Part shown: positions 17,181-52,558 of the stretch, in pieces | How positions within the stretch are numbered: the first letter of the stretch is position 1 | How the letters are laid out: each line of letters opens with the position of its first letter | DNA from: Niveispirillum lacus | GTDB taxonomy: Bacteria; Pseudomonadota; Alphaproteobacteria; Azospirillales; Azospirillaceae | Assembly: GCF_002251795.1 (NCBI RefSeq) | Contig: NZ_NOXU01000032.1 | Coordinates: 372,001-436,000, forward strand | DNA length: 64,000 nt | Direction of reading: 5' to 3' | Made by a program: the position numbers and the translations under genes | Notes under the pieces: generated by a model | What the model saw: the letters and a program-made list of their open reading frames with translations, nothing else | The model's database searches: none | What the model was told of the DNA's origin: nothing

Positions 17181-17197
17181 TGGCCACAGGGTGGATA
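17181..17197. promoter_or_regulatory. IclR-type operator candidate (TGGCC-N7-GGATA)
   Basis: TGGCCACAGGGTGGATA. Its reverse complement is TATCC-ACCCTGT-GGCCA, which matches the recurring TATCC-N7-GGACA motif of this window with one mismatch in the half-sites. It lies between the divergent cytochrome c and serine hydrolase genes. Confidence 0.45.
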
Positions 17198-17295
17198 AAA
17201 CAACCGCTCATCCTGTCAGGGGCGCGGGGAATACCCCTATGATCAATCTGCGACCGGCGGTTCACCGCATCGCGAGCACTGAGTTCCCGAACACT

Positions 17296-17333
17296 GACCG
17301 CGGCGCCGATCCTTCGACACCGCGGTCTTTTTC
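17296..17333 (+). terminator. Terminator-like hairpin in the leader of the serine hydrolase gene
   Basis: GACCGCGG (17296-17303) pairs perfectly with CCGCGGTC (17320-17327), and TTTTTC follows directly. On the plus strand this is an intrinsic-terminator shape. It ends only 33 bp before a plus-strand start codon, with no plus-strand gene before it. It could be a leader attenuator or the end of a small RNA. Confidence 0.5.
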
Positions 17334-17366
17334 GTTGGCGACCGACCGAAAAAGGGAAGGTTTGGC

Positions 17367-18587
17367 ATGCGGCGCGCGTCTTTCTGGTTGACCACCCTTC
17401 TGACCCTGGCCACCTCTGGCGTTGTATTGGCGAAGACGGAAGCCGATGCGATCTATGCCCAACGCTTGGCCATCCTGACGGCCGGTGGCCCGATGGAGAA
17501 CCTGTACCAGCCACGTGAACCGGTCCACGGTGCCGTCATGGCTGCGCTTCCCATGGCGGAACCGGGCAGACAGAGCATCAGGGCCGAAGCACTTTCCGCT
17601 GCCCGTTCTTATGCCGCTGCCAGTGGCGCCCAAGCCTTGATTATCTGGCATGACGGTAAGCTGCAGGAAGAGACCTATTTTGGCAGCAGCAATGCTGACA
17701 CGCCGCTAACATCGAAATCCCTGTCCAAACCGATGACGGCCATGGTGGTGGGGCGCGCCATCGAAATGGGGAAAATCAAATCCCTGGACCAGAGCGTTTC
17801 CGATTTCATCACCGAGTGGAAAGGCACGCCAAAGGAAGCGATGCTGATCCGCCACCTGCTGGATATGCGCACCGGCTTTCTGGAACAGGGGTTCAATGCC
17901 GACCCCAACCATCCCTGGAACCGGGCCTATTTGTCGGTTGATCACGGCACTTACATCGTAAACGATTATCCTCTGACCGATGCTCCGGGCACACGGTACG
18001 GCTATTCCAACGCCACGTCAGAGTTGGTAGCGCTGGTGATTGAGCGCGCGACGGGCCGACGCTATGCGGAGTTTGTCGGCACGGAACTGCTGGTCCCAAC
18101 CGGGGCACCAGGTGGCGAGGTCTGGGTGAACCGACCGGGCGGGCTTGCCCATTCCGGCTGCTGCATGATGCTCCCAGCCCGCACTTGGTTGCACATGGCC
18201 AAGCTGCTGCTGGATGATGGTATGGTTGGCGGCAAACGGCTGCTGCCTCGGGGATACGTGCAGGAAATGGCCACCGCTACGGCGCAGAACCGGCATTATG
18301 GCCTGGGGCTTTGGGTCGCCGGTCCTTATGTCGAGCGCCGCGGTTTCGGTGCGCCAGGCGCGCCCGGTCCGAAGGTGCTGCATTCCGAACCCTACCTGGA
18401 CAAGGACCTGTTCCTGTTCGACGGCAATAGCAACCAGACGGTTTTTGTCTCGCGCAGAACGGGCCTGATCGCGTTGCGCATGGGGCCGACCCCACCGAAA
18501 ACGATGGACTGGGACAATGCCTACCTGCCGAACACCCTGCTGCGGGGGCTGGTGACCCCGGTGACGCTGGTCGCGCAGGAGAGGTAA
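17367..18587 (+). CDS. Exported serine hydrolase, beta-lactamase / 6-aminohexanoate-dimer hydrolase (NylB)-like
   Basis: 406 residues with a signal peptide (MRRASFWLTTLLTLATSGVVLA). It has the class C / NylB serine motif S-L-S-K at 118-121, a Y-S-N motif at 213-215 and the later region HSGCCMMLPARTWLHMAKLLLDDG common in NylB-type esterases and amidases. AAGGGAAGG gives a strong ribosome binding site. Members hydrolyse amides or esters, including linear nylon oligomers, and need not act on beta-lactams. It ends exactly where the IclR gene on the opposite strand ends. In this context, periplasmic amide or ester cleavage before uptake is plausible. Confidence 0.83.
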   Translation: MRRASFWLTTLLTLATSGVVLAKTEADAIYAQRLAILTAGGPMENLYQPREPVHGAVMAALPMAEPGRQSIRAEALSAARSYAAASGAQALIIWHDGKLQEETYFGSSNADTPLTSKSLSKPMTAMVVGRAIEMGKIKSLDQSVSDFITEWKGTPKEAMLIRHLLDMRTGFLEQGFNADPNHPWNRAYLSVDHGTYIVNDYPLTDAPGTRYGYSNATSELVALVIERATGRRYAEFVGTELLVPTGAPGGEVWVNRPGGLAHSGCCMMLPARTWLHMAKLLLDDGMVGGKRLLPRGYVQEMATATAQNRHYGLGLWVAGPYVERRGFGAPGAPGPKVLHSEPYLDKDLFLFDGNSNQTVFVSRRTGLIALRMGPTPPKTMDWDNAYLPNTLLRGLVTPVTLVAQER

Positions 18588-19385
18588 TCACCCTTTATGA
18601 TTTTGCACCGCCGCCTGGGTCAGTTCCGCACTGATCATGTCGGCGGTGCCTTTCAGATCGTCCAGATAGCGGTCAAGCGCGGCCTCCGGCTTCATGGCCG
18701 AGGCGAAGAAGATCATGGTCATCGCCGCCTTGAAATACTCGCCCAGGAAAATGGGCACGGCGATCGAGGCCGTCTTGCCCGGCGTCAGATTGTGGTGGTT
18801 GCGACCCTGGACGGCATAACCTTGTGACCGGATACGCTCCACATTCAGGGCGGCACGGGCGGCTTTCAGATATTCCGGGTCCACCTCCTGCGACACCTTC
18901 ATCCAGCGCAGCAGGGTCTCGCGCTCTTCATCCGGCGTATAGGCCATGGAGAGTTTGCCCGACGCACTGTCCAGCACGGGCAGGGTGAAGCCCGGATAAT
19001 AGCGTTCGAAGGTCAGGGCCGTGTTGGCGTGCGTGCTGTCACGCAGCATCATGTTGCGGCCGACGCGCGCTGCGATCGAGATGGGCCAGCCAATGCGCCG
19101 GGTCAGCGACACGATATGTGGTCGTGCAATTTCCACCAACCGGTCGTCATCTTGAAACCCATAGGCCAGCGATTGAACCATGGCCGTGGGGCGATAGCGC
19201 TTTCGATCCGGTTCCTGCTCCACCAGCCCTTCATAGACCAGGGTCTGAACAAGCCGGCAGGCGGTGGGATAGGGCACCTCCGCCGACCGGGCGATCTCCA
19301 TCATGGTCAGCGACCCCTGCCGGTTGATCGCCTTCAAGGCCGCAATGGCACGACTGATGGCGCGGATCGGCACCCCCTTTTCCAT
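18588..19385 (-). CDS. IclR family transcription regulator (first copy)
   Basis: 265 residues. The N-terminal winged helix (RAISRAIAALKAINRQGSLTMMEIARSAEVPYPTACRLVQTLVYEGLVEQE) and the C-terminal GAF-like effector domain (TLPVLDSASGKLSMAY, and later GKTASIAVPIF) are typical of IclR. GGGGAGGGGTGA precedes the ATG. An exact TATCC-N7-GGACA element lies about 80-95 bp upstream, consistent with autoregulation. The gene follows the hydratase/lyase operon on the same strand. Related regulators in aromatic and heterocycle catabolism sense a pathway acid. A second IclR is at 52645-53490, so it is unclear which binds the shared motif. Confidence 0.92.
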   Translation of the reverse strand: MEKGVPIRAISRAIAALKAINRQGSLTMMEIARSAEVPYPTACRLVQTLVYEGLVEQEPDRKRYRPTAMVQSLAYGFQDDDRLVEIARPHIVSLTRRIGWPISIAARVGRNMMLRDSTHANTALTFERYYPGFTLPVLDSASGKLSMAYTPDEERETLLRWMKVSQEVDPEYLKAARAALNVERIRSQGYAVQGRNHHNLTPGKTASIAVPIFLGEYFKAAMTMIFFASAMKPEAALDRYLDDLKGTADMISAELTQAAVQNHKG

Positions 19386-19463: not shown

Positions 19464-19480
19464 TATCCGCCTGTTGGACA
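19464..19480. promoter_or_regulatory. IclR-type operator candidate TATCC-GCCTGTT-GGACA
   Basis: An exact instance of TATCC-N7-GGACA, 79 bp upstream of the first IclR gene and just past the stop of the lyase gene. Three other exact instances (in one orientation or the other) occur at 33889, 49390 and 52542. Confidence 0.6.
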
Positions 19481-19487: not shown

Positions 19488-20348
19488 TCAGCGCGCCCAC
19501 TTCTTATCAAACGCCCAGACATGCTCGAACCCGATCAGGGAACAGAACTCCTTGAAATTGAACAGCGGTATATCGGGTGACAGGCTGGTGCCCGTCTGCT
19601 TCAGGTTCAGCAATGCCGTCTCCATGGCCGCGGCCGCCGCCAGGCTGGTCATGGCCGGGAAGATGGCCATGGAGTAGCCCAGGCTTTCCAGTGTCTTGGC
19701 ATCGCGAATGGGGGTTAGGCCGCCATCGGCCATATTGGCCATCATCGGCTTATCGATCGAGCCGGTGACGATGCGTGCCTCCTCATCACTGGTCAGGGCT
19801 TCGGGGAACAGGATATCGGCTCCGGCTTGGGCATACAGCTTCATGCGGTGCAGAACCCCTTCCAGTCCCTCACTCTGCCGTGCATCGGTGCGGGCGATGA
19901 TCAAGAAATTCTCATCTCGACGCGCTTCCACCGCGACACGGATCTTGTCGGCCATTTCTTCGGCGGGGACGACGCGCTTGCCCGGCGTATGGCCGCACTT
20001 TTTCGGGAATTCCTGGTCTTCGATCTGGATGGCAGTGATGCCGGCCTGTTCATAGGCCTGGACCGTGTGATGTACGTTCAGCAGGCCACCGAAACCCGTA
20101 TCGGCATCGGCCACGACGGCAGCGTTACAGGTGCGGACCAGGGTCGCCATACGGTCGACCATCTGTGTCACCGACGCGATACCGGCATCGGGCAGACCGT
20201 AGGCCGACGCCACGGTCCAGTACCCGCTGCCATAGACAATGTCGAAACCGACCTTGTTGGCGACGACGGCGGCGATCATGTCCTGAATGCCGGGGGCGGT
20301 GATGAACTGCCGGGACGCCAGTTTCTGGCGAAGGATGGGATTGGCCAT
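19488..20348 (-). CDS. Isocitrate lyase / PEP mutase family lyase, 2,3-dimethylmalate lyase-like
   Basis: 286 residues from the ATG at 20348; a longer frame upstream is unsupported. The TIM barrel shows VVADADTGFGG, QIEDQEFPKKCGHTPGK and LIIARTDAR, with the catalytic Cys retained in KKCGH, so C-C bond cleavage is expected rather than phosphonate chemistry. Family members close to this pattern include dimethylmalate lyase, methylisocitrate lyase and oxaloacetate hydrolase/decarboxylase. It follows LeuD- and LeuC-like genes on the same strand. A LeuCD-like hydratase next to such a lyase matches the last two steps of anaerobic nicotinate breakdown (dimethylmaleate to pyruvate and propionate). 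The exact alkyl group here is unknown. Confidence 0.85.
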   Translation of the reverse strand: MANPILRQKLASRQFITAPGIQDMIAAVVANKVGFDIVYGSGYWTVASAYGLPDAGIASVTQMVDRMATLVRTCNAAVVADADTGFGGLLNVHHTVQAYEQAGITAIQIEDQEFPKKCGHTPGKRVVPAEEMADKIRVAVEARRDENFLIIARTDARQSEGLEGVLHRMKLYAQAGADILFPEALTSDEEARIVTGSIDKPMMANMADGGLTPIRDAKTLESLGYSMAIFPAMTSLAAAAAMETALLNLKQTGTSLSPDIPLFNFKEFCSLIGFEHVWAFDKKWAR

Positions 20349-20376
20349 GATGTTCTCTGTGTGAAAATGGAGATAG

Positions 20377-20985
20377 TCAGCGGGTGAGCCAGGGCAGGCG
20401 GCGGCGGCGCTCCTGCTCGTACCGATCGATGGCACCGGCATAAAGGTTGAGGATGCCCATCACCTCGTCCCAGCCATTCAGCAGCGCATCCCGCTTACCG
20501 TCATCAATGAGGATGGTAATTTCAGAACCATCGGGCCTTGTGATGGTGCGCGCAGTCAGGTCAACCTGAAGGCTGGCACCAGCGCTGGCATCAGACAGCA
20601 GGGCCGCGTGATCCGCCTCCCCCACCGTGACCGGCAGCATGCCGTTGCGATAGCAGTTTCCGCGGAAAATCTCGCCAAAGCTGGGGGCAATGATGCAGCG
20701 GATGCCTAAGTCCAGAATGGCCCAGGGTGCCTGTTCACGCGAGGACCCGCAGCCGAAATTGGGGCCGGCGACCAGGATGCCAGCATGGCGCCAGGGATCG
20801 CGGTTCAGGATAAAATCCGCCACCTCCCGCCCCTGCCCGTCATAGCGGCGGTCATGAAAGGCGTAACGGCCTAACCCCTTCTTCTCCGTGATGGTCAGAA
20901 AGCGGGCGGGATAGATGATGTCCGTATCGATATCGGCTTCGTCCAGCGGCGCAGCGATGGCGGTCAGGGTCGTAAAGGGCTGCAT
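20377..20985 (-). CDS. Aconitase-family hydratase small subunit, LeuD/DmdB-like
   Basis: 202 residues, the usual proteobacterial LeuD length. It shows the swivel-domain signature GPNFGCGSSREQAPWAI and DTDIIYPARFLT near the N-terminus. It pairs with the LeuC-like subunit, whose stop lies 3 bp before this start, and precedes the lyase gene. No LeuA or LeuB is nearby, so catabolic hydration of a substituted maleate (as in dimethylmaleate or citraconate hydratases) is more likely than leucine synthesis. A true second LeuD cannot be excluded without the rest of the genome. Confidence 0.88.
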   Translation of the reverse strand: MQPFTTLTAIAAPLDEADIDTDIIYPARFLTITEKKGLGRYAFHDRRYDGQGREVADFILNRDPWRHAGILVAGPNFGCGSSREQAPWAILDLGIRCIIAPSFGEIFRGNCYRNGMLPVTVGEADHAALLSDASAGASLQVDLTARTITRPDGSEITILIDDGKRDALLNGWDEVMGILNLYAGAIDRYEQERRRRLPWLTR

Positions 20986-20988
20986 GGA

Positions 20989-22398
20989 TCAAGCCTCCCC
21001 TAGAAAATCACGCGGGTCGGTGATTTGGCCGGCGATGGCAGAGGCCGCCGCCATGGCCGGGCCCATCAGGTGGGTGCGCGCCCCTTGACCTTGCCGACCC
21101 TCGAAATTCCGGTTCGACGTGCTGGCGCAACGCGCACCGGGCGGCAGCCGGTCGTCATTCATCGCCACACATAACGAACATCCGGGTTCCCGCCAGTCAA
21201 AACCGGCCGCACGGAAGATGGCATCCAATCCTTCTCCCTCTGCCTGCTGTTTTACCGCCTTCGATCCCGGAACGACCAAGGCCTGCACCCCGTCAGCCAC
21301 ATGGCGATCTTTGAGGATGCGCGCGGCGATACGCAAATCCTCGATCCTTCCATTGGTGCAGGAGCCAATGAAGACATGGTCGATGGCAATATCGCGGACC
21401 GGCATGCCTGGCGTCAGGCCCATGTAGGACAGGGCTTTGACCATCTTGGCTGCCGTCTCGGTGTCGACAGCATGGGCCGGGTCGGGCACGCGGCCCGTGA
21501 CATCGACCACTTGATCCGGGCTGGTGCCCCAACTGACCTGCGGCACCAGTTTGGTGACATCAATATCGATCTCCCTGTCGAAGACCGCACCATCGTCGCT
21601 GGGCAAGGTTCGCCAATAGGTGACGGCAGCGTCCCAATCCGCGTCCTTGGGCGCCAGCGGCCGGCCCTTCAGCCAGGCGAAGGTCGTGTCATCGGGCGCC
21701 ACCAGGCCGGTGCGGGACCCCGCCTCGATGCTCATGTTGCACAAGGTCATGCGCCCTTCCATGGACAGGGCACGGATGGCGGGACCGCAATATTCGATGG
21801 CATGGCCAATGGCGCCGTTGCTGCCCAGCTTTCCCACCACGGCCAGGATGATATCCTTCGCCTCAACCCCAGGCGGAAGGTCGCCATGGACATTCACCCG
21901 CAAGGTCTTGGCCTTGGTCAGGCGCAGAACTTGCGTTGCCAGCACACTTTCACATTCACCCGACCCGATGCCGAAAGCCAACGTGCCAAAGGCGCCATGG
22001 GTGGCCGTATGACTGTCACCACAAACCAGGGTCAAACCCGGCAAGGTAAAGCCTTGTTCCGGTCCCGTAACATGGACGATCCCCTGCCGCCGATCATCCA
22101 GGCCAATCATGTCGATACCGAAATCAGTGGCATTTTTCTGCAATAGTTCGACCTGGGCGCGGGCTTGTGGATCGGCGATGGGACGGTCGCGACCACGGGT
22201 CGGCACCGAATGGTCGGCGACGGCCAGAAAGGCTGCGGGATGGCGGACCTGCAACCCTTTTTCTCGTAAAGCGGCGAAGGCCTGCGGACTGCTGACCTCA
22301 TGCAGCATGGCGCGGTCGATATAGACAAGACTGACCCCACCAGCCTCTTCGACCACCACATGGCTGCGCCAGAGCTTGTCATAAAGGGTTGACGGCAT
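20989..22398 (-). CDS. Aconitase-family hydratase large subunit, LeuC/DmdA-like, [4Fe-4S]
   Basis: 469 residues with all LeuC landmarks: [35 protein letters not shown] (first cluster Cys) and [11 protein letters not shown] (the other two Cys), so a [4Fe-4S] cluster is expected. The start [15 protein letters not shown] is that of isopropylmalate isomerase large subunits. It is first in a three-gene operon with LeuD-like and lyase genes, divergent from a VAO-type flavoprotein, with an operator-like site at 22479-22495. It probably hydrates a cis-butenedioate such as an alkylmaleate to a malate. The leucine-pathway alternative is weakened by the absence of leuA and leuB. Confidence 0.88.
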
Positions 22399-22495: not shown

Positions 22496-22575
22496 ATCTT
22501 ACGCCCCGACCGCGCTGGGCACCGCGCTGCCAGATAGTCTGCGCCGCGGAATTGTCGAGGATTGGGGACAGGGTT

Positions 22576-24189
22576 ATGCCGGACAGCGTTTCGCACGGGG
22601 ACAATATGGATAACGGCCTGAAGGCTGCCTTGCTTGCCATCACCGGCCCCGGTGGCGTGACCGATGACGCGACGACCCGCCGCCTGCATAGCGGCGATAT
22701 CTGGTCAGAAAGTGCCGAACCCGTTGCTCTCGTGGTTGCACCCGACAATCTGGAGCAGTTATCGGCGATCATCACCCTGCTCCACCGTCACAAGGTGCCC
22801 CTGGCACCGCGCGGTGGCGGGATGAGCTATACCGGCGGGTACATTCCCACCGTGTCGGGCACCGTTTCGCTGGACATGCGGCGGATGAACCGCGTCATTG
22901 ATCTGCGCCCCGACGATATGGTGGTGACGGTCGAGGCCGGCTGCACCTGGATAGACCTGAACAAGGCCCTGGCACCGCACGGGCTGCGCACCCCGTTCTT
23001 CGGGCCGATGTCCGGCCTGATCAGCACCATCGGCGGGGGCGTGTCACAGCAGAACGCGATGTTGGGGGCCGGCCATTACGGGACGACCAGCGAAAGTGTG
23101 GTGGCCTTGACCATGGTACTGGCCGACGGGTCGATCCTGCGGACCGGCGCACGCGGGGAGGATGGCGACACGCCGTTCTACCGGCATTTCGGCCCTGACC
23201 TGACGGGCCTGTTCTGCGGTGATTGCGGGGCCTTCGGCACAAAGGCCCATATTACCCTGCGCCTGATCCAGGCCCCAAAACACGAGGACTACGCCAGCTT
23301 TGAATTCCCCACCGGCGGCGACCTGATGCGGGCCATGGCGGCCCTGGCACGGGCCGGTGTCGCGGCCGAAATGTGCGCCTTCGACCCCGGCCTGACACGC
23401 GTGCGCATGCAGCGCGCGTCGATGACCAGCGACGTCAAGGCGCTGGGTGCCGTCGTCACGCGTCAGAAATCCCTGCTGCGCGGGTTATGGGAAGCGGTGC
23501 GGGTCGCCGGGGCTGGCCGCAGTTTCGTCTCCGAGGACAGTTTTCCCCTGCATCTGAACGCTGAGGGCCGGTCGGCGGAAGGCGTGGCACATGATATGGC
23601 CACCGCCCGGCGCATCGCGGCGGAACATCATGGCCGTGAAGTGGCGAACACCATCGCCAAAGTCATCCGCGCCATGCCCTTTCCCCCGCTGAACAGCGCG
23701 CTGGGACCGGGTGGCGAACGCTGGATTCCCATTCATGGTCAGATCTCCCTGTCCAAGGCCCCTGCCCTGTATGAGGCGCTTGAGCAGGTCTTCGGCGATA
23801 TGGCCAACGACTTCGCCGAGCACGGCATCAAGACGGGATACCTGTTCACCTCCCTCTCGACCAACGCCCTGATCGTGGAACCCGTGATCTATTGGCCGGA
23901 AAAGCGTCTGCCGGTTCATTATCAGGCGCTGGAACCCGCGCATATGGCCCGGCTGCCCGAACATGCGGATAATCCCCAAGCGACGACCGTAGTGGCGGAG
24001 GCACGCAAGCGCCTGATCGCCACCTTCCGGCGTTTTGGCTGCGGTCATTTTCAGGTTGGCCGCTCCTACCCCTATCGTGAAAGCCGTGACGAGGCCAGCC
24101 GCGCCCTGCTCGACGCCCTCAAGGTTGCGGTGGACCCCGACCGACAGCTTAATCCCGGTGTGCTGGGGTTCGCTAAGGACCCGACATGA
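22576..24189 (+). CDS. FAD-binding oxidoreductase, VAO/GlcD family (first paralogue)
   Basis: About 537 residues from the ATG at 22576 (GGACAGGG before it; a TTG at 22552 and an ATG at 22606 are alternatives). The PCMH-type FAD domain has VAPRGGGMSYTGGYIP-like phosphate-binding residues, VTVEAGCTWIDLNKAL and PFFGPMSGLISTIGGGVSQQNA. The C-terminal half resembles the cap of vanillyl-alcohol oxidase / 4-cresol dehydrogenase enzymes, which oxidise alcohols or para-alkyl phenols. It overlaps the next gene by four bases. A clear paralogue sits on the other strand at 28389-29969, with the same segments in the same order. The electron acceptor could be O2 or a cytochrome c. Confidence 0.85.
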   Translation: MPDSVSHGDNMDNGLKAALLAITGPGGVTDDATTRRLHSGDIWSESAEPVALVVAPDNLEQLSAIITLLHRHKVPLAPRGGGMSYTGGYIPTVSGTVSLDMRRMNRVIDLRPDDMVVTVEAGCTWIDLNKALAPHGLRTPFFGPMSGLISTIGGGVSQQNAMLGAGHYGTTSESVVALTMVLADGSILRTGARGEDGDTPFYRHFGPDLTGLFCGDCGAFGTKAHITLRLIQAPKHEDYASFEFPTGGDLMRAMAALARAGVAAEMCAFDPGLTRVRMQRASMTSDVKALGAVVTRQKSLLRGLWEAVRVAGAGRSFVSEDSFPLHLNAEGRSAEGVAHDMATARRIAAEHHGREVANTIAKVIRAMPFPPLNSALGPGGERWIPIHGQISLSKAPALYEALEQVFGDMANDFAEHGIKTGYLFTSLSTNALIVEPVIYWPEKRLPVHYQALEPAHMARLPEHADNPQATTVVAEARKRLIATFRRFGCGHFQVGRSYPYRESRDEASRALLDALKVAVDPDRQLNPGVLGFAKDPT

Positions 24190-25193
24190 GCCAGTCCTAT
24201 AGAGCCCTGCAACAGGTTCGCTTCGCCCGCAGCTTCCGTGAAGCAGTGGAACTCGTGGATCAGCCACTGCGCGATCCGGGTCCCGGTGAGATCCAAGTGC
24301 GTAACCATTGGTGTGGCGTCAACGGCATCTTCGATACCCAGATCGCGCGCAACGCCGTCGATTACATCCGCATCCCCCTGCCTACCTGGACCGGGGTGGA
24401 AGCCATCGGCGTGGTGGAGGCGGTGGGCGAAGGGGTCACGGGCTTCAAGCCGGGTGATGCCGCCGCCACCAACCGCTTCACCGGCGGTTACCGTCAAGCG
24501 AACATTGCACCGGCGGCACAGTTCATACCAGTACCATCGGCCCATCGCGACTATCTGGCGCTCGCCTCCACCGGTGTGTCGGCCCTATTGGCGCTGGACC
24601 ATGTCGGCGGGCTACGTGCGGGTGAGACGGTTGCCATTTCGGCAGCGGCGGGCGGTCTTGGCCATCTGCTGGTGCAACTGGCAAAGCTGGCCGGTGCGCG
24701 GGTGGTCGCCGTCTGTGGCGGGGAACGGAAATCGGCCTTTGTCCGGTCGCTGGGCGCCGACCGGGTGATCGATTACAAGCGCGAGGATGTGGCTGAGGTC
24801 CTGTCCACGGAGTTTTGTGATGCCCTGGATCTGGCCGTCGACACCGTCAGTGGCACGATCTTCGATGCTTTCCTGGACAATGTCGCCCCGCTGGGGCGCG
24901 TGGTCGTGGCGGGGGCCGCCCAGGACCTGGACGGCAAGCCGGAAATCGTCACGGCACCACGCGTTGGCAACAAGCTCTACTATAAGGGCGCATCGGTGCG
25001 CGGCTTCATGAATGGCCGTTTAACCGACCTGTGGCCAGCCGCGCGCGAAAGACTGTTCAGCCTGCACGCCGCTGGCAAAATTGCCGTCACCTTCGATGAC
25101 GCGCCATTCACGGGTCTGGCCCAGGTGCCAGACGCCGTGGAGCACCTGCTTTCCGGGCGGTCAATGGGCAAGGTCACCGTCGATCTTCGTTGA
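24186..25193 (+). CDS. Medium-chain dehydrogenase/reductase, quinone-oxidoreductase-like
   Basis: 335 residues, zinc-free MDR type. It has GVEAIGVVEAVGEGVTGFKPGD for the N-terminal barrel, then the nucleotide-binding AAAGGLGHLLVQLAKLAGARVVAVC (Ala-rich AxxGGxG motif preferring NADPH) and GADRVIDYKRED. Such enzymes reduce quinones or alpha,beta-unsaturated carbonyls. Its ATG overlaps the stop of the VAO-type gene (ATGA), so the two are co-translated and probably work in succession, for example oxidation of an alcohol and reduction of the resulting enone. The substrate is not identifiable. Confidence 0.87.
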   Translation: MSQSYRALQQVRFARSFREAVELVDQPLRDPGPGEIQVRNHWCGVNGIFDTQIARNAVDYIRIPLPTWTGVEAIGVVEAVGEGVTGFKPGDAAATNRFTGGYRQANIAPAAQFIPVPSAHRDYLALASTGVSALLALDHVGGLRAGETVAISAAAGGLGHLLVQLAKLAGARVVAVCGGERKSAFVRSLGADRVIDYKREDVAEVLSTEFCDALDLAVDTVSGTIFDAFLDNVAPLGRVVVAGAAQDLDGKPEIVTAPRVGNKLYYKGASVRGFMNGRLTDLWPAARERLFSLHAAGKIAVTFDDAPFTGLAQVPDAVEHLLSGRSMGKVTVDLR

Positions 25194-28351: not shown

Positions 28352-28390
28352 ATCAATCGGGGCAGGGTGTTCCCCGCCCCATGGTTGATT
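28351..28390. terminator. Bidirectional terminator between convergent genes
   Basis: Outer arms AATCAA / TTGATT and inner GGGGCAGGG / CCCCGCCCC (one mismatch) form a long stem with a TGTT loop in the 37 bp between the alcohol dehydrogenase and second VAO-type gene ends. It would serve both strands. Confidence 0.65.
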
Positions 28391-29969: not shown

Positions 29970-30051
29970 GGTACTGGCTTCCCTGGGAAATGCGTCTGTG
30001 GACGACACAGTGCCAGGAACCGGCCAGGTTGGTTGCAGCGGCGATACGCGT

Positions 30052-38775: not shown

Positions 38776-38790
38776 GGATCAAACTCCCCT

Positions 38791-40839: not shown

Positions 40840-41016
40840 CGCATCCCCCTGTTTTGGAAGCGTGAAACTTGTTGCTTTGCTGATAGCGGAATACTGGACC
40901 CGCATCCTGGAGGGGGCGATGGATTGACCGCTGTGCGGATGTTCGCTCCGCTTCCAGCACCGCGGCGTCTCACCCGGCTTGCAATGATAAATTGAGGGAT
41001 ACCATTCGCACCCCGA

Positions 41017-41985: not shown

Positions 41986-42017
41986 GTCACGCTCCCTGCG
42001 TTGGTTGACGGCATTGG

Positions 42018-42033
42018 TATCCAACAGCCGACA
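42018..42033. promoter_or_regulatory. Degenerate operator-like site (TATCC-N6-CGACA)
   Basis: TATCCAACAGCCGACA resembles the window's operator motif, with a spacer one base shorter and one mismatch. It lies within the 102 bp upstream of the exported hydrolase. I consider it weak. Confidence 0.2.
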
Positions 42034-42087
42034 CTGATCTGTCGGGCACCGACCCGATCCGTCTTTGGTGGCCGTACCCTGTGGCCA

Positions 42088-43911: not shown

Positions 43912-43937
43912 GGGACATCCTTTGATGAATGATCGGA

Positions 43938-45164: not shown

Positions 45165-45198
45165 CGACGATATCCCTCTGCGGCCTCGATGCGGCCGG

Positions 45199-46665
45199 TC
45201 AGATCTTTTCCATGATTTCCAGTGCGGCAGCCTCGCCCGTCTCCATGGCGCTTTCCATGCCATGTTCCAGGCGGCGCAGATGTTCACCGGCGAAATGGAT
45301 GCGACCCGCAGGCTTGCCCATATCGGCGGCAAACCGTTTCACCTGACCCGGCGCGTAGAAATGTTTGTTACCGCCGACGAACGGGTTACGACCCCAACTG
45401 TACCCAACCTTATACTCCAAAGCGCCGGCCATGGAGGGACGGATACGGGTCAGTTCGGCCAGCACCAGTTCCACCTGCCGGGCGGTATCACGGTCGTCCC
45501 AGCGCGTGGCCCCGTCGCCATTAACCCAAACGATCATGCTGTCAATCGCACCCGTTTCCGGGTGTTTCAATGCGAAGGCACGTTCAAAGGACGTGTTGCT
45601 CCAGATCGAGGGAGGCAGACCGTCCTTTTCCCAATAGGGCTTGTTGATCTTGAAATGGAACTGCGTGGTTGCCGAATAGCGCGCACCAGCGATGGCGTCC
45701 GCCTGTGCATCGGGCAGGCCCGGCGTAAACCGGATGCGGCTGACAGCGCTGAACGGCGCTGCCATGACCATGAACCGGCTGGTCAGTACGTCCCCATTGC
45801 CCAACAGGGTCTTGACCTGATCCCCCGTCTGATCGACGGCGATGACCGGGCTGTTCAGGCGCACAGGCAGCTTCAGCGCAGCAGCCATGGCGCGCGGCAG
45901 CATGTCAGCCCCGCCGACGATATAGCTGCGATCGGAGGCAAGGGACGCACCGCCATATTGTGGCTTGTTGGGGTCCTTGAACCCTTCCACCTGGGCGCGG
46001 GCCATGTCACGGAAGATGGAAAGGGCCGACACCCCCTCCAGGCTGGCGCCATTGAGATCGATATCGGCCAGCCGGATCGCCGCCTCCGACACACCCTTGG
46101 ACCGCATCAACTCGGCCGCGGAAATGTCGAACTGCAAGTTTTCGGGCAACAACCAGGCATTGGTCTGTTTGAAGGGCAGCCAATCATGCATCAGGCGGTT
46201 TTGCAGGATATAGGGCAGGAAATCGCGTTCCTTGCCGCGCGTCTGGTTGACGGCTGATTTGGACCAATCAGCCGGCAGCACGCTGGTGCCATCCACATGG
46301 ATCAGGAAATCGGTGCCCTTGGCCCCTTTGGTGGTTAACCCGACATTCAGCCGGGCGCAAGCGTCACGGACACGGCCATACAGCGCGCCCACCTCACTGC
46401 CACCCAGTTCAGCCTGATAGCCTTCGGCACGGCCGGTTCGCAGACGGCCACCGACCCGGTCGGACGCTTCCACCACCTGCACCACCAGCCCCTGTTCCTC
46501 CAGCATAGCGGCGGCGTTCAGGCCGGCAAGACCGGCACCGACCACCACGACGTCAACGGTCTGGGGCCCGTTGGCCCAACCGCGCGGGGCCGCCAGCAAA
46601 GGAACAGCGGCCAACATACCGCCCACAATGGAACGGCGGGACAGGATTGGCTGACGGAGGGTCAT
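45199..46665 (-). CDS. Tat-exported flavin amine oxidase
   Basis: 488 residues from the ATG at 46665 (GTGGAGAAC before it). A twin-arginine signal (SRRSIVGGMLAAVPLLAAPRGWA, RR at 10-11) precedes GxGxxG in VVVVGAGLAGLNAAAM at about 43-48, then VVEASDRVGGRLRTG and the C-terminal flavin motif RIHFAGEHLRRLEHGMESAMETGEAAA. This is the MAO / NicA2 / polyamine oxidase superfamily. The Tat signal means it works in the periplasm, unlike most amine oxidases. It is followed at once by a b561-cytochrome c gene, which suggests a dehydrogenase using cytochrome rather than O2, as reported for the nicotine enzyme NicA2. The amine substrate is unknown. Confidence 0.88.
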   Translation of the reverse strand: MTLRQPILSRRSIVGGMLAAVPLLAAPRGWANGPQTVDVVVVGAGLAGLNAAAMLEEQGLVVQVVEASDRVGGRLRTGRAEGYQAELGGSEVGALYGRVRDACARLNVGLTTKGAKGTDFLIHVDGTSVLPADWSKSAVNQTRGKERDFLPYILQNRLMHDWLPFKQTNAWLLPENLQFDISAAELMRSKGVSEAAIRLADIDLNGASLEGVSALSIFRDMARAQVEGFKDPNKPQYGGASLASDRSYIVGGADMLPRAMAAALKLPVRLNSPVIAVDQTGDQVKTLLGNGDVLTSRFMVMAAPFSAVSRIRFTPGLPDAQADAIAGARYSATTQFHFKINKPYWEKDGLPPSIWSNTSFERAFALKHPETGAIDSMIVWVNGDGATRWDDRDTARQVELVLAELTRIRPSMAGALEYKVGYSWGRNPFVGGNKHFYAPGQVKRFAADMGKPAGRIHFAGEHLRRLEHGMESAMETGEAAALEIMEKI

Positions 46666-46695
46666 AAGCGCGTTCTCCACCTGTTTAAACAACAA

Positions 46696-46720
46696 TCCCC
46701 CGGCCTTGCGGACCGGGGGA
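46696..46720 (-). terminator. Hairpin terminator after the second TonB receptor
   Basis: TCCCCCGG / CCGGGGGA arms with a 9-nt loop, followed on the minus strand by TTGTTGTTT. It lies 16 bp beyond the receptor stop and could attenuate transcription into the amine oxidase operon. Confidence 0.75.
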
Positions 46721-46735
46721 AATGTCAGTGCACCA

Positions 46736-49180
46736 TCAGAACTTGGCAGAAGCCGTGACGCCGAAACGACGGCCTTCGCCATGGTAGACTTCCAAGATGC
46801 GTTGGGTGCCGACATTGTAGTTACGCGGCTGCTGAATGATGTTGGCGTTGTACTCCTCATCAGTCAGGTTGGTGACCCAAGCCGCAATGGAGTAGGTGTC
46901 GCTTTCCAGAGCCAGCCGCAGGTTGGTCAATGTCCGCTCACCAAAGGTGGTGAGGTTCAGGCTGTTGACATAAGTGGGGCCGGTATAATTGACGTCTACA
47001 CGACCGGCGAGTGTCCAGTCGGCGGAAACCGGCACGTCGGCGGTGGCGTGCAGGTTATACTGCAACTTCACCGACCGGGCTGGACGGTTGCCCGCGATGG
47101 AGGCGAAAACACCACGGCCCGTAATGGTGACCAGATCACAGACAGTGGACGGGTTGCCGCACTGCGAGGAATAGGCCGGATCATAGGTGCCCTTGGCAAA
47201 TTTCGGATCGGAGTAGGTTACCGAACCGCCAACCGAGACGATGTCCGTCGCCTTGACTTCAGTCTGCACCTCGAACCCGTTTGTCTCCATCTTACCGGCG
47301 TTCATAATGATGGCCTGTGCGACGGACGCGGTGGGGGAGAAGGTGGAAAGCTGCAGGTTGGTCCAGTTCACACGGAAGGCCGAGGCATTCAGCATAACGC
47401 GGCGATCGAACAGCCACGACTTGATGCCGGCCTCATAAGTCCAGTTGGTTTCTTCGTCGAAGGTCTTTTCGTTATCGGACAAACCGGCCAGCGAATTGAA
47501 ACCGCCCGAGCGTACACCCTTGGCGGCCGACGCAAACAGGAAGACATCTTCCGTGGCCTTGTAGTCGATGGTGAAGCGCGGCGTGAAACTGGTGAATTCG
47601 CCCCGGAACGGCTGACCAGCCACGCAGGGACCAAAGGCGTTGAAGAAGGTCAGGGTGCAACGGTCGGTCTTGCGGTCGATATTGTAACGGCCTTCGGCGG
47701 CGACGCGCAGACCATCCGTAACTTCATACCCGACGGAACCGAACACGGAGCGGGTGATGTTCTGCTTGTAATTCTGGCTGGCCAGCCGGGCAACGACGGT
47801 TGGGTCCAGGATCAGACCGGGATTGGCCAATGCGGCCATCGGGCCGGTGCCGACCGGCAAACCGGGCAGGACCTGCACCAGCCGCTCATTGGCGCCAAGA
47901 CCCGGCGCGGTGGTGCCGGCCCAGGACTTGCTGTCGACGTTTGACTGGAAGAAGAAGGCCCCGGCCAGCCATTGGAACCGGTTGCTATCGGGCGACTGAA
48001 TCCGGATCTCCTGGCTCTTCGTCACCACCTCATCATTGCTGACCAGCATGGAGTTGGCACGAACCGTGCGGGTGTAGCTGCCGGTGGCAGCACCGCAGGT
48101 GGTCCCCACCGTGCAGACCCCATAGAGCGCGCCATTGCCAAAGACATCGGAATCGTTGGCAGCATAGACCTCCGATGCCGTAACACCCGTGACACTGACA
48201 ACGGAGAAATTTTCGAATTCATATTCCAGTTCCAGCGCACCCTGGCGGGACTTGGAAACGCTTTCCGGGATCGTGGCGGTGACATCAATCGGCAGGTTGG
48301 TGGGGATCTTGCCGCAATAGAGCAGGAAAGCCTGCGACTGGGTGTTGAAGCCACCGCAATTATGGGTCGTCACCGGGTTCAGCGACAGGCCCGGCAATTC
48401 CGAAGTAGACTTGGTCGCAAATCCCGTGAAAGTCGCCGTGAAATTTTCGGTCGGCGTGAAGACCAAGGCGCCGGAGACGCCGCGCTTCTCGTAGCCGCCA
48501 AGCTTGTCATTCAAATCGAAATTGTTCTTGAACTCACCGGCATAGGTGGACCAGGTCGCCGTGATGGACCCGGCCAGCTTGTCCTCGATGATCGGGCGGG
48601 ACAAGGACACCTTGCCGCGATAATCGCCATTGTTACCAATCGTGACAGTGGCCTTGCCTTCCGGGCTGCTGCCGGGACGGGCTGTGGTGATGCCAACGGC
48701 ACCGGCGAAGGTGGAGCGGCCATAAAGTGCGCTCTGCGGACCCTTCACCACATCCAATTGGGCGATATCGACGGTGCCCAGGACATCGGCCGTATTGCGG
48801 CTGGTCTGGTAGATGCCGTCGATGAATACACCGACATTAGCCTCGACATTCAGATCGATGGAGGAATTAGCGGGGGCCAAGCCACGCACAAAGACATTGG
48901 TGAAGGTGCCACCAGTGATGTTGGTGACAGAGATACCCGGCGTATTGTTGGCCAGTTCCGTCAGGCTGGTGATGTTGCGCTCCGCCAGATCGTCCGCCGT
49001 CAAGGCCTGGATAGCGATAGGGACAGTCTGGATGTCCTCCTTGCGCTTACGGGCGGTAACGATGATCTCTTCCAGTACCAGATCGCCTTCTGCCGCCAGT
49101 ACAGCCGGGACCATAGAAGACGCAGCGAATGCACTGACCAATGCCGAGGTGGCCAACGCAGTGATTTTGGAACGGTACAT
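46736..49180 (-). CDS. TonB-dependent receptor, catabolic-locus type
   Basis: 814 residues. A signal peptide ends ...VLAAEG and is followed by the plug (LEEIIVTARKRKEDIQTVPIAIQALTADDLAE, then LDVVKGPQSALYGRSTFAGAVGITT) and a barrel ending GVTASAKF with terminal Phe. AAGGGGGCTTC is the ribosome binding site. The EIIVTARKREE-type plug is that of receptors accompanying aromatic and xenobiotic degradation genes in sphingomonads. It heads the amine oxidase and HyuAB gene row and has an operator candidate 210 bp upstream. It likely imports the locus substrate across the outer membrane with TonB. Confidence 0.94.
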   Translation of the reverse strand: MYRSKITALATSALVSAFAASSMVPAVLAAEGDLVLEEIIVTARKRKEDIQTVPIAIQALTADDLAERNITSLTELANNTPGISVTNITGGTFTNVFVRGLAPANSSIDLNVEANVGVFIDGIYQTSRNTADVLGTVDIAQLDVVKGPQSALYGRSTFAGAVGITTARPGSSPEGKATVTIGNNGDYRGKVSLSRPIIEDKLAGSITATWSTYAGEFKNNFDLNDKLGGYEKRGVSGALVFTPTENFTATFTGFATKSTSELPGLSLNPVTTHNCGGFNTQSQAFLLYCGKIPTNLPIDVTATIPESVSKSRQGALELEYEFENFSVVSVTGVTASEVYAANDSDVFGNGALYGVCTVGTTCGAATGSYTRTVRANSMLVSNDEVVTKSQEIRIQSPDSNRFQWLAGAFFFQSNVDSKSWAGTTAPGLGANERLVQVLPGLPVGTGPMAALANPGLILDPTVVARLASQNYKQNITRSVFGSVGYEVTDGLRVAAEGRYNIDRKTDRCTLTFFNAFGPCVAGQPFRGEFTSFTPRFTIDYKATEDVFLFASAAKGVRSGGFNSLAGLSDNEKTFDEETNWTYEAGIKSWLFDRRVMLNASAFRVNWTNLQLSTFSPTASVAQAIIMNAGKMETNGFEVQTEVKATDIVSVGGSVTYSDPKFAKGTYDPAYSSQCGNPSTVCDLVTITGRGVFASIAGNRPARSVKLQYNLHATADVPVSADWTLAGRVDVNYTGPTYVNSLNLTTFGERTLTNLRLALESDTYSIAAWVTNLTDEEYNANIIQQPRNYNVGTQRILEVYHGEGRRFGVTASAKF

Positions 49181-49605
49181 GAAGCCCCCTTGATTTTTAC
49201 GGTCATTTCGAGCGGCATTATTTTCGGCGCCAGGTTCCCGTTTTCTGGCGGCTGCTCATCATTTGGGGTCTGCGCGAGCTTATGAGCTTTACCTGCGCTG
49301 TGATGACCCGATCAGCCTGTTAGCCGGATATCTGCCTGCCGGTTCAGCTAATTCCTTTGCTGAGCGTTTCACAACAATGCAGCCCGCAGTGTCCACCTGA
49401 CGGATAGCGTCAAGGGGTCGCTCATTCTCCTGGGATCTGTTGAAAGAGCGGCTGGCCAGCCCGTCCATCGCTACGGGGGTCCCGGTACCTTTGACCAAGC
49501 ACAATGGCACCGGTGAAGGGTGCGTTTAGGGCCATCCGGCAAAAAACGACCGGCGACGGGGCGGAAGCGAAACCCAACCGATCGGGGCGAGGGAGCAGCG
49601 CGCCG
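49181..49605. other. 425-bp promoter region of the second TonB receptor
   Basis: No supported gene. It contains the receptor ribosome binding site and the operator candidate at 49390-49406, and it lies downstream of the aldehyde dehydrogenase stop. I did not find a clear terminator for the aldehyde dehydrogenase, though several weak GC hairpins are possible. Confidence 0.6.
49390..49406. promoter_or_regulatory. IclR-type operator candidate TGTCC-ACCTGAC-GGATA
   Basis: The reverse complement is TATCC-GTCAGGT-GGACA, identical to the site at 52542-52558 except for one spacer base (16 of 17). It lies upstream of the TonB receptor, so receptor expression is probably under the same control as the FAD monooxygenase/IclR pair. 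Confidence 0.6.
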
Positions 49606-51120
49606 TCACAGCCGCGCCGTGACCGCCTTTGTTTCCAGATAGGCGTCAAGCCCCTCTCGTCCGAATTCCCGGCCCCAGCCGGATTGTTTGTATCCACCAA
49701 ACGGAATGTTGGTCGCAATCGCGCCGTGGCAGTTGATGGACACCTGCCCTGACCGGATGCGCGACACCAGTTTATGCGCGGTGGACAGGCTGCGGGTCCA
49801 AACAGACCCCGACAGGCCGTAGACACTGTCATTGGCCAGTGTGGCGATTTCTTCCACATCCGCCGTCTCAAACCGGTGGACCGCCATGACGGGGCCGAAC
49901 ACTTCGTCGCGGAAGATATCCATGTCAGGCCGGACATCGGTCAGGATGGTGGGCGGCACAAAATGGCCGGGCCGGTCCAGCGCCGAGCCACCGGTTACCA
50001 GCGTCGCCCCCTGCGCCAACGCCCTGTCCACATGGGCCAGCACGCGCGACGCATGCGGTCCGCTGATCAGGGGACCGAAATTATGACCGGCATCCAGCCC
50101 GTGGCCCAGCGTGAGAAAACCCGCAAAGGCCTTCATCCGCGCCACCAGTTCATCATGGATCGACGCATGGGCGAAGATCCGGGTGCCGGCCATGCAGTTC
50201 TGGCCCTGCAAGAAGAAGGTTGCCATGGAGACGCCAGGACCAGCCAATTCCAGGTCAGCATCCGGCATCACCACCACAGGTGACTTGCCACCCAGTTCCA
50301 GGCTGACTTTTTTCAGGTTGCCGGCAGCAGCCTGCACAATCTTGCGCCCCACCTCCGTGGAGCCCGTGAAGCTGATCTTATCGATCAACGGATGGGTCGA
50401 AAGCGCCGCGCCTGCTGTTTCGCCTGGACCATTGACGATATTGACCACCCCATCGGGGAACCCCGCCTCCTGGAGCAAGCGCGCTAGCGCCAGGGCTGAC
50501 AAAGGTGTTTCCTCCGCCGGCTTGACCACGACGGTACAGCCTGCCGCCAGCGCCGGGGCCAGCTTCAAGGTCAGGGTGGAGACGGGCACATTCCAGGGCA
50601 CGATCAGGCCGACCACGCCCACGGGTTCGCGCAGAGTGTAGGTCAGCGCTTCTGCATCCGCGGTCACGTGCGGCGGCGGGGTGGTGGTCACCCCCTCGAT
50701 GCGCAGAATGGCGCTGGCGTAATAATCGAACATCTCCACACAGTTCGACACGGTCAGGCCGGCGATGAAGCGCGGCATGCCATTGTCCAGAATTTCCAGT
50801 TCGGTGAAGAAATCGGCGTTCCGCTCCAGCAGTCGGGCCAGCCGGACCAGCAGGCCCGCCCGTTCCCGCGCCTTCAACCGCGACCAAGGACCGTTAAAGG
50901 CGCGTGCCGCGGCCTGTACGGCTGCGTCAATATCGCCTGCGCCGCCCGATGCCACGGTGGCGAGATGCAGTCCGGTCGCGGGATCATCAGTATTGAGAGT
51001 GGCACCCGACAGCGATGGGCGCCACTGCCCGTCGATGAACAGCCCATGGTGTTCAGCCAGAAAGGCCCGGGTCATGGCGGAAACAGCAAGGCCGTCGAAC
51101 GGCAGGGTTTGCAGCGTCAT
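49606..51120 (-). CDS. NAD(P)-dependent aldehyde dehydrogenase
   Basis: 504 residues with the full ALDH set: VGLIVPWNVPVSTLTLKLAPAL, FTGSTEVGRKI (cofactor loop), ELGGKSPVVV with the general base Glu, and the catalytic Cys in QGQNCMAGTR. PFGGYKQSGWGREFG closes the fold. It oxidises an aldehyde to an acid in the cytoplasm. It follows the FAD monooxygenase by 18 bp and is probably in the same operon. Possible substrates include the aldehyde produced by the amine oxidase or by the alcohol dehydrogenase of this region. Confidence 0.93.
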   Translation of the reverse strand: MTLQTLPFDGLAVSAMTRAFLAEHHGLFIDGQWRPSLSGATLNTDDPATGLHLATVASGGAGDIDAAVQAAARAFNGPWSRLKARERAGLLVRLARLLERNADFFTELEILDNGMPRFIAGLTVSNCVEMFDYYASAILRIEGVTTTPPPHVTADAEALTYTLREPVGVVGLIVPWNVPVSTLTLKLAPALAAGCTVVVKPAEETPLSALALARLLQEAGFPDGVVNIVNGPGETAGAALSTHPLIDKISFTGSTEVGRKIVQAAAGNLKKVSLELGGKSPVVVMPDADLELAGPGVSMATFFLQGQNCMAGTRIFAHASIHDELVARMKAFAGFLTLGHGLDAGHNFGPLISGPHASRVLAHVDRALAQGATLVTGGSALDRPGHFVPPTILTDVRPDMDIFRDEVFGPVMAVHRFETADVEEIATLANDSVYGLSGSVWTRSLSTAHKLVSRIRSGQVSINCHGAIATNIPFGGYKQSGWGREFGREGLDAYLETKAVTARL

Positions 51121-51138
51121 CGGTTGGCTTCCCTGCGA

Positions 51139-52293
51139 TTAGACGGGAACGGTACAGCAATCATAATCCAGCAGGCCCAGCGTATCCTCGTTACGCAGGC
51201 CTTCGATACCGAACAGTTCGGTATTGGCAGCCTGCATCCGATCGGCATTGGCATTGGACTCCAACTGGATGAAGGTCGCGCGTTCATGGCGGGCCGCCAC
51301 ATAGCGGCGCAACGCCTCACCCGTGCTGGCGCTGTCACCCAGGGCGCGCGACAGGATGATGGCATCCTCAATGGCGCAGGCAGCACCCTGGCCCATGAAC
51401 GGCGTCATGGCATGGGCGGCGTCGCCCAGCAGAACCACCTTGTCATCCAGGACCCAGGTATCCAGCGGTCGACGGGCGTTGATGGCCCACTTATAGACCT
51501 TGCCCTCCGGTACGGCGGCGATCATCGTCTGAACCTCCGGTGCCCAACCGGCAAAGGTCGTCTCCAGGTCGGACCGTTCGGCCGGAATGGTCCAGCCATC
51601 CTGAGTCCAGCCATCCTGGCGGGCAAAGAACACCATGTTGATGATCTTGGCCCCGCGCACCGGATAGCGAACCACCATACGGTTCGGACCGATATGCATA
51701 CCGGGCCAATCCACCAGCTCCTTTAATGCGCCTTCCACGGGCGCCAATGCCCGCCAGGCGACATGCCCGGTGAAATGCGCAGATACCGGTTCAAACAGGC
51801 GGCGGACCACCGACTTCAGACCATCGGCGCCGACGACAAGGTCGCCGTCGATGCGGCGCCCGTCATGCAGCACGGCGGAGGTACCTTCCACCGCAACAAC
51901 ACCAGCATTGGTCAGCAGGCGGCACCCCGCTGTTTGCGCTGCCGCCACCAGAATGGCGTGCAGATCGGCGCGGTGAATATAGACATAGGGCGCCCCAAAT
52001 CGCGCCCGCATGTCACAACGGTCTATGGCGCGGAGCAGGCGCCCATCCTGCCAGTGCTGGATACGCTGCCGGGCTGGCTCCACCCCCGCAGCGGCAATCT
52101 GCTCCGCCAACCCCAGATAGACATATCCTTTCATGGCATTGGGAGACAGGGTTACACCGGCGCCAATTTCGGCAAAAACGGGGGCAGCTTCCAACAGCGT
52201 GACAGCAAAACCCTGGCGTGACAGCGCAATGGCTGCCGTCAACCCGCCAATGCCACCACCGACGATCGTTATTCTCGCTTTTGTCATGGGCAT
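51139..52293 (-). CDS. Class A FAD monooxygenase, salicylate / 3-hydroxybenzoate hydroxylase-like
   Basis: 384 residues from the ATG at 52293 (GAAGGC upstream; a second ATG two codons on also fits). FAD-binding ITIVGGGIGGLTAAIALSRQG, the DG motif VVGADGLKSVVRRLF and the GD motif VVLLGDAAHAMTPFMGQGAACAIEDA are all present. This is close to the 3-hydroxybenzoate 6-hydroxylase / salicylate hydroxylase / 6-hydroxynicotinate monooxygenase branch. No ring-cleavage dioxygenase is visible nearby, so the product must be handled elsewhere, or the substrate is not a benzenoid ring. It is divergent from the second IclR gene with two operator candidates between. Confidence 0.9.
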   Translation of the reverse strand: MPMTKARITIVGGGIGGLTAAIALSRQGFAVTLLEAAPVFAEIGAGVTLSPNAMKGYVYLGLAEQIAAAGVEPARQRIQHWQDGRLLRAIDRCDMRARFGAPYVYIHRADLHAILVAAAQTAGCRLLTNAGVVAVEGTSAVLHDGRRIDGDLVVGADGLKSVVRRLFEPVSAHFTGHVAWRALAPVEGALKELVDWPGMHIGPNRMVVRYPVRGAKIINMVFFARQDGWTQDGWTIPAERSDLETTFAGWAPEVQTMIAAVPEGKVYKWAINARRPLDTWVLDDKVVLLGDAAHAMTPFMGQGAACAIEDAIILSRALGDSASTGEALRRYVAARHERATFIQLESNANADRMQAANTELFGIEGLRNEDTLGLLDYDCCTVPV

Positions 52294-52389
52294 TTTCAGC
52301 CTTCGATTCGTTGACAGCCGACCCATCATCGGCGTCACGACGGATTAGGCGGGCTGTCCGTGCCACCTGGATAGGCACCTGCGGTCCGC

Positions 52390-52406
52390 TGTCCACACGG
52401 CGGACG
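52390..52406. promoter_or_regulatory. IclR-type operator candidate (TGTCC-ACACGGC-GGACG)
   Basis: The reverse complement CGTCC-GCCGTGT-GGACA keeps the right half-site and the N7 spacing. It lies nearer the FAD monooxygenase side of the divergent region. Confidence 0.45.
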
Positions 52407-52541
52407 TGCCCACAGGCCTGAAAAATGTAAGCCTAGCGGGCATTTGCCGCTTCTTTGTCCGGCAGGCGATTATGCAAGGTGCAAAGCGCACCGGCAAAAA
52501 CCTGGGAATACCCCCGGAACAGCATTGTCTGTCGCCGGGCT

Positions 52542-52558
52542 TATCCGACAGGTGGACA
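52542..52558. promoter_or_regulatory. IclR-type operator candidate TATCC-GACAGGT-GGACA
   Basis: An exact TATCC-N7-GGACA, 87 bp before the second IclR start. It differs by one base from the site upstream of the second TonB receptor. It is consistent with autoregulation by this IclR protein. Confidence 0.6.

Follow-up and report, generated by a model that had tools for sequence, protein, structure and literature searches.

How are the many short operons around two iclR genes of Niveispirillum lacus controlled, and do they belong together? The question is raised by a 64,000-nucleotide stretch of contig NZ_NOXU01000032.1 (positions 372,001 to 436,000), referred to here as the window, in which a palindrome of the form TATCC-N7-GGACA recurs between genes. 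An original prediction, made from the sequence of the window, held that this palindrome ties scattered divergent operons into one regulon of an IclR-family protein. The comparisons described here indicate that the palindrome is very probably a shared switch of one pathway's operons. The fuller reading is likely as well: the palindrome would be an IclR-family operator, IclR1 its most probable binder, and the operons of one pathway would be switched jointly.

All eight predicted sites are present, and the four exact copies lie at 19464, 33889, 49390 (minus strand) and 52542. Compared with TATCC-N7-GGACA, the sites at 17181 and 30052 have one mismatch and those at 22479 and 52390 have two. The symmetrical core of the palindrome is TRTCC-R-N5-Y-GGAYA, which is matched completely at 30052 and with one mismatch at 17181, 22479 and 52390. 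The sites at 49390 and 52542 share 16 of 17 bases, as the original prediction had noted. The sites, together with two weaker ones that emerge from the matrix scan described below, are as follows; no strand is assigned, and negative numbers are positions of the site centre upstream of a gene.

17181..17197, putative operator in the divergent gap between the cytochrome c and esterase-like genes, reading TATCCACCCTGTGGCCA on the minus strand
19464..19480, putative operator upstream of iclR1, centre 87 bp ahead of the start codon
22479..22495, putative operator in the divergent gap between a leuC-like gene and a flavin adenine dinucleotide (FAD) oxidase gene, centres -89 and -65
30052..30068, putative operator, centre 52 bp upstream of the FAD_binding_4 oxidase gene 28389-30008
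33889..33905, putative operator in the divergent gap between the DUF1838 and methyltransferase genes, centres -115 and -31
40925..40941, probable weak operator, CATCCGCACAGCGGTCA read towards a hyuA-like gene, centre -28, matrix score 12.3
49390..49406, putative operator, centre 218 bp upstream of the TonB receptor gene, the head of a possible long operon
52390..52406, putative operator, centre 60 bp upstream of the FAD monooxygenase gene 51139-52338
52456..52472, possible third, weak site in the gap between the FAD monooxygenase gene and iclR2, matrix score 13.2
52542..52558, putative operator, centre 95 bp upstream of iclR2

The placement of these sites is strongly biased. When one mismatch is allowed, the window contains 12 matches (one self-palindromic site is scored on both strands) where 2.63 are expected, and none of 100 shuffles reaches 12. 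All five core matches and three of six one-mismatch matches fall in promoter gaps, which make up 4.1 of the 64 kb, while the 59.4 kb of coding DNA holds no core match and three with one mismatch. Ten controls of 20 kb each, 200 kb of this genome in all, have no match in 12.5 kb of promoter gap, and their coding DNA has no core match and 14 one-mismatch matches. The whole 4.97-Mb genome contains 13 exact copies of the motif. The four copies in the window all lie in gaps, and the nine elsewhere all lie within called open reading frames (Fisher p = 0.0014, with genes assigned by a simple, crude caller). Taking the rest of the genome as reference, the Poisson chance of finding at least four exact copies in 35.4 kb amounts to 7e-7, although this figure and the Fisher value are post hoc in that the motif had been chosen from the same window. 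By both the promoter and coding counts and the placement of exact copies, the motif is not equally frequent inside genes. Divergent gaps of at least 40 bp carry a site in four of four cases between 13.5 and 53.5 kb and in none of four in the remaining window. The original description of all site-bearing operons as divergent must be amended, however, since the sites at 19464, 30052 and 49390 sit in same-strand gaps.

Sites are also retained upstream of orthologous genes. Conservation was counted in 20 regions from 16 relatives, with genes taken as orthologues at 60% identity or more and up to one mismatch allowed in the site. A site precedes 67 of 107 operon-head regions and 3 of 121 operon-internal regions, a division that, like the site classes used below, was set after the sites had been looked at. 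The counts for heads and internal regions are 43/56 and 1/67 in Niveispirillum (five genomes), 11/21 and 1/21 in the genus Nitrospirillum (three genomes), and 13/30 and 1/33 in the Sphingomonadales group (eight genomes), so that conservation at operon heads extends over Azospirillaceae and Sphingomonadales. When 200 palindromic permutations of the pattern are applied to the same 107 heads, they give a mean of 0.75 matches and a maximum of 6. The Niveispirillum genomes are closely related, yet inner bases of their sites vary while the arms are kept, for example before the TonB gene. The core pattern occurs 112 times, compared to 52 for its reversed form, in nine relatives with iclR1 or iclR2 orthologues; the four relatives without an IclR1 or IclR2 match above 52% (G066, G067, G055 and G076) are at control level (12 versus 10).

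Individual promoters differ in how faithfully the site is kept. The TonB receptor gene has it in five of five relatives at -217 or -218, with a second site at -256 in G068 and G070, and the FAD_binding_4 oxidase gene 28389-30008 has it in six of six counted relatives. The cytochrome c site lies at -126 in G068 and G070, at -117 in G069a and between -62 and -164 in G060, G062, G071a and G064a. The methyltransferase gene is preceded by a site in 8 of 13 relatives, and a complete core match, TATCCGACTGCCGGATA, is found at -125 of the FAD monooxygenase gene in G069b. Five Niveispirillum regions have a weaker look-alike of the hyuA site at -27 to -29, and Sphingomonas vulcanisoli has one at -31.

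A weight matrix that uses no window or Niveispirillum sequence recovers the same sites. It is built from 29 distinct sites in 11 regions of other genera, namely seven of Sphingomonadales, one of a Pseudomonadota metagenome-assembled genome (MAG) and three of the genus Nitrospirillum. Its consensus is TATCCGCCAGGCGGATA. Columns 1, 3, 4 and 5 carry 1.3-1.6 bits, the second base is A or G, positions 6 and 12 are R and Y, and the three centre columns have 0.12-0.21 bit. In the window, the eight sites are all among the top nine matches; the odd one out is rank 8, inside the transporter gene at 31315. The next-ranked matches are at 52456 in the FAD monooxygenase/iclR2 gap, at 47012 inside the TonB gene and at 40925 before hyuA. 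Scores of at least 14 occur nine times in the window, eight of them in gaps, compared to twice in the 200-kb control. In the window and eight other Niveispirillum regions, matches of at least 14 bits have a density of 9.7 per 10 kb in gaps (33 matches) and 0.38 in coding DNA (18 matches), some of the latter being sites absorbed by the caller's over-long gene starts, as also happens before iclR2 in G074. The corresponding control values (the ten stretches plus 20 kb of contig C29) are 0.65 (one match, the C29 site discussed below) and 0.10 (two matches).

What kind of protein would bind such a sequence? Suvorova and Gelfand 2021 (PMC8222616) describe a TGT-11-ACA subgroup among the group-1 operators of IclR proteins, a 17-bp palindrome of the form TGTYCRYW3RYGRACA. 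The window sites share the 17-bp palindromic form, the arms TGTYCRY and RYGRACA, and the location upstream of a regulator and adjacent operons, although their arms often read TAT instead of TGT. The motif fits the group-1 arms and precedes iclR genes themselves, which supports the inference of an IclR regulon. Most iclR1 and iclR2 loci carry the putative autoregulatory site expected of this class (at most one mismatch). Tandem sites 18-22 bp apart are described there for many, though not all, IclR groups. Spacings of 22 bp in G071a/G075a and of 28, 33, 38 and 49 bp elsewhere are found among the regions compared, and none of 18-22 bp occurs in the window with up to one mismatch.

Three known systems offer partial parallels. 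The PobR operator of Acinetobacter baylyi (TTGTCCGATSATCGGACAR, Table 1 of PMC8222616) has the same TGTCC-N7-GGACA architecture as the window sites, but its N7 is A/T-rich (GATSATC) and it is listed for 4-hydroxybenzoate and protocatechuate use. The MhpR operator of E. coli (GGTGCACCTGGTGCACA, same table) contains a central CACCTGGTG that resembles sites of relatives, such as TGTCCACCTGGTGGATA in G068, but differs from the window system in its outer arms and targets. PheR of Sphingobium is also an IclR regulator, whose loss raises expression of catabolic and TonB receptor genes; it differs in repressing phenanthrene genes and in its minimal motif, GCAACG (PMC13273656).

The window encodes two proteins of this family, as listed here.

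18588..19385, minus strand, IclR1 (P0001), HTH_IclR and IclR_C domains above cut-off, best candidate binder
52645..53490, plus strand, IclR2 (P0002), 32% identical to IclR1, possible second binder

Both belong to the IclR family by their Pfam HTH_IclR and IclR_C scores (43.9 and 42.7 bits for IclR1, 44.6 and 38.2 for IclR2; cut-offs 22 and 24). Both also match PRK09834-type NCBIfam models, which we take to be MhpR, but below cut-offs (best 146 bits versus 299 for IclR1, and 190.6 versus 269 for IclR2). Homologues of IclR1 at 93-98% identity are found in four Niveispirillum, Azospirillum sp. RU38E and Alpha proteobacterium AAP38. Nine further iclR1 loci come from Nitrospirillum iridis, from seven Sphingomonas, Sandarakinorhabdus and Sandaracinobacteroides, and from L090, a Pseudomonadota MAG grouped with the Sphingomonadales. 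A site with at most one mismatch precedes iclR1 in 13 of these 15 loci, at -65 to -92, and iclR2 in 12 of 13 loci, with the window's own counted. Among the eight Sphingomonadales-group genomes, the iclR1 site is at -85 or -86 in six (five without mismatch), at -65 in one and absent from one.

IclR1 is the best candidate binder on these comparisons. The site marks iclR1 in Sphingomonadales in which no IclR2 orthologue was found, and the stretch PYPTACR[IL]VQTL, which we assume to contain the recognition helix, aligns as conserved in the window, Niveispirillum and Sphingomonadales copies. A search for IclR2 in the eight Sphingomonadales-group genomes, some of them MAGs whose completeness is not established, returns IclR1 in every one and, in seven, no other protein. 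In the eighth there is a further iclR gene whose product is 37% identical to IclR2, and none of these eight genomes gives an IclR2 match above this value. Another transcription factor encoded elsewhere might instead bind the site, with the iclR genes merely among its targets. The motif is also present on promoters of non-regulator genes, as such a factor would have it, but we consider this unlikely: the arms match the published group-1 operator, the site accompanies iclR1 into differing gene neighbourhoods in two orders, and none of 17 more distantly related iclR genes from the same bacterial family is preceded by it.

Several observations weigh against a pathway-wide IclR1 operator. Some concern genes expected to be targets. 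DUF1838 has an upstream site in only 4 of 10 counted relatives, the hyuA upstream regions fail the one-mismatch pattern in 13 of 13, and the flavocytochrome c gene, counted as a head, has the pattern in none of three. The promoter gap 25194-25500, the sole promoter-type gap of more than 100 bp within the cluster to lack a site, also stands apart. Others concern the regulators. L093 and two regions of the genus Nitrospirillum, G060 and G062, lack a site before iclR1, and the second iclR2 copy of G069 (69-70%) and iclR2 of G060 lack one as well. A site does precede the further iclR gene noted above in the eighth Sphingomonadales-group genome, the Sandarakinorhabdus MAG G087; the product of this second, more distant gene has 48% identity to IclR1. 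The centre of the window sites is CWG or mixed, unlike the A/T-rich W3 reported for the group-1 operator in PMC8222616. Finally, the N. lacus genome as a whole shows little enrichment. Matches with up to one mismatch are in mild excess only (189 + 174, compared to 144 + 150 for the reversed pattern), and the core count is 13 versus 12 in the reversed control. Five of these 13 core matches are in the window, all in gaps. Of the eight outside, all but one (C22:473377, matrix score 12.8) fall within called genes.

Matches elsewhere in the genome therefore look like noise, and the evidence lies in the location of the sites, as the whole-genome core count does not rise above its control. That count, and the picking of the motif by eye in a single window, would suit the view that chance, or a repeat without regulatory role, accounts for the palindrome. 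Promoter placement, conservation and the permutation control all speak against this, as does the retention of arms while inner bases vary between relatives, and the cross-genus matrix result and permuted-pattern counts contradict it; we regard it as highly improbable. The proposed regulon thus withstands both comparisons, the motif being less frequent in genes and conserved upstream of orthologues, while the extension to one pathway is something we infer.

A more serious alternative to a single binder, though one we find somewhat doubtful, is that IclR1 and IclR2 have overlapping but different preferences and divide the sites, with IclR1 taking CWG-centred ones and IclR2 the others. The first set would comprise the iclR1, methyltransferase/DUF1838, TonB and iclR2 sites, and the second those of the FAD monooxygenase, the FAD oxidases, leuC and cytochrome c. 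A CWG centre is found in 20 of 38 distinct first-set sites (20 of the 38 come from genomes without IclR2) and in none of 21 second-set sites, but the grouping was made after the sites had been seen, and only 7 of the 20 sites from the IclR2-less Sphingomonadales-group genomes have this centre. The presumed helix stretches are unlike (PYPTACR in IclR1, PRTTAYR in IclR2), which would suit different preferences. The FAD monooxygenase gene has an upstream site in eight of eight counted relatives with iclR2 and in none of five without. In the latter, the gene is flanked by same-strand genes and is probably operon-internal, so its lack of a site says little. Sorting the sites into IclR1 and IclR2 classes was considered and rejected, since the resulting pattern is post hoc and does not hold cleanly where IclR2 is missing. 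The original proposal that one of the two proteins controls all blocks may hold. Of the two, IclR1 is the stronger candidate, given that sites are still present where no IclR2 orthologue was found, but IclR2 might use the same sites or take a part of them. The gap 25194-25500 has no site. With two IclR paralogues side by side, the locus also offers a case in which experiments could tell their binding preferences apart.

The strong sites lie in seven gaps and serve 11 transcription units, from cytochrome c through IclR2, if units are drawn from gene order. Besides the two iclR genes, the predicted units and genes are the following.

13724..17063, minus strand, predicted operon of cytochrome c, FAD hydroxylase, Amdase/maleate-isomerase-like and PuuE-like genes
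17367..18587, plus strand, beta-lactamase-family protein, presumably esterase-like
19488..22398, minus strand, predicted operon of LeuC-like, LeuD-like and methylisocitrate/dimethylmalate-lyase-like genes
22552..25193, plus strand, FAD_binding_4 oxidase and quinone-oxidoreductase-like genes
28389..30008, minus strand, FAD_binding_4 oxidase
30075..33782, minus strand, predicted operon of DUF1838 and two MFS transporter genes
33928..35973, plus strand, methyltransferase and two small proteins without Pfam match
35959..49180, minus strand, TonB receptor, amine oxidase, cytochrome-c-like, dehydrogenase/hydrolase, hydrolase, HyuA, HyuB and hydrolase genes, in one or more operons
49606..52338, minus strand, FAD monooxygenase and aldehyde dehydrogenase genes

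Profile searches name only kinds of enzymes for these genes, which include two FAD hydroxylases, FAD oxidases, MFS transporters and a TonB receptor. The set may serve to take up a ring compound of some kind and degrade it to small acids, and little weight should be placed on any substrate guess. One guess is a lactam-, imide- or maleate-type route, from the PuuE-like, Amdase/maleate-isomerase-like, HyuAB and LeuCD proteins and the lyase. The gene at 43938-45332, adjoining the amine oxidase gene, encodes 464 residues with no Pfam match at 1e-5 and a weak C-terminal match to cytochrome c-550 (NCBIfam, below cut-off).

The sites lie in promoter gaps, are conserved and fit the class of IclR operators, and from this a mode of binding and control can be proposed for these operons. 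TRTCC-R-N5-Y-GGAYA would be the operator of an IclR-family regulator, and a dimer of IclR1 would bind it both in front of iclR1 and ahead of the other operons of the 13.7-53.5 kb region. IclR1 would switch uptake (TonB receptor, MFS) and breakdown enzymes in response to a substrate or intermediate of the pathway, and the inducer of these promoters should be such a compound. IclR2, whose own gene bears a site, would be either controlled by IclR1 or sharing the operator. Activation is slightly favoured because 10 of the 11 units have the site centre at least 50 bp before the called start codon. Promoter positions give no reading of the sign, because sigma-70 scans are at shuffle level (6 versus 5.5 in 33.0-52.7 kb, 3 versus 4.2 in 16.0-33.0 kb). 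Scattered oxidases, hydrolases, transporters and a TonB receptor would in this way become one testable regulon.

Such a regulon would be of an ordinary, known kind, but large for IclR. IclR factors generally control themselves and one or two adjacent operons, according to PMC8222616, whereas about 11 transcription units are involved here. No account of this regulon was found in a literature search whose scope excluded subscription papers, supplements and regulon databases.

A second cluster in the same genome resembles the window. On contig C29, positions 300810-318277 (loci L170 and L187) encode a third IclR, 68-69% identical to IclR1 and with nearly the same presumed recognition-helix stretch. 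The cluster also encodes counterparts of the window's TonB receptor (80% identical), amine oxidase (78%) and DUF1838 protein (84%). In the gap upstream of its TonB receptor gene lies an operator-like TATCCGCCTGGTGGTAA, centred 66 bp from the called start, and in G075 the same gap has a 15.8-bit matrix match within a small called open reading frame. It is a real, if tentative, possibility that IclR1, IclR2 and the third IclR read one operator over the approximately 11 units and the C29 cluster, and that an undescribed catabolic pathway, operators included, is common to Azospirillaceae and Sphingomonadales. On the iclR2 contig of G074 (L196, G074:C94, 6544-8352), the amine oxidase (35%) and the TonB receptor (29%) are different ones. 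The gaps before these two genes have operator-like matrix matches of 14.1 and 19.3 bits, which suggests the same operator with other targets.

Two loci of the window outside the regulon may be mentioned. Another TonB receptor is encoded at 6767-9370, and its upstream gap, 9371-9690, is without a site. Just beyond the cluster, 55382-55693 encodes a HapK/RedY-like small protein (PF11639) beside an SDR and a polysaccharide-deacetylase-type protein. L090 has a 69% homologue of the HapK/RedY-like protein, and 86 bp upstream of it lies an operator-like site with one mismatch.

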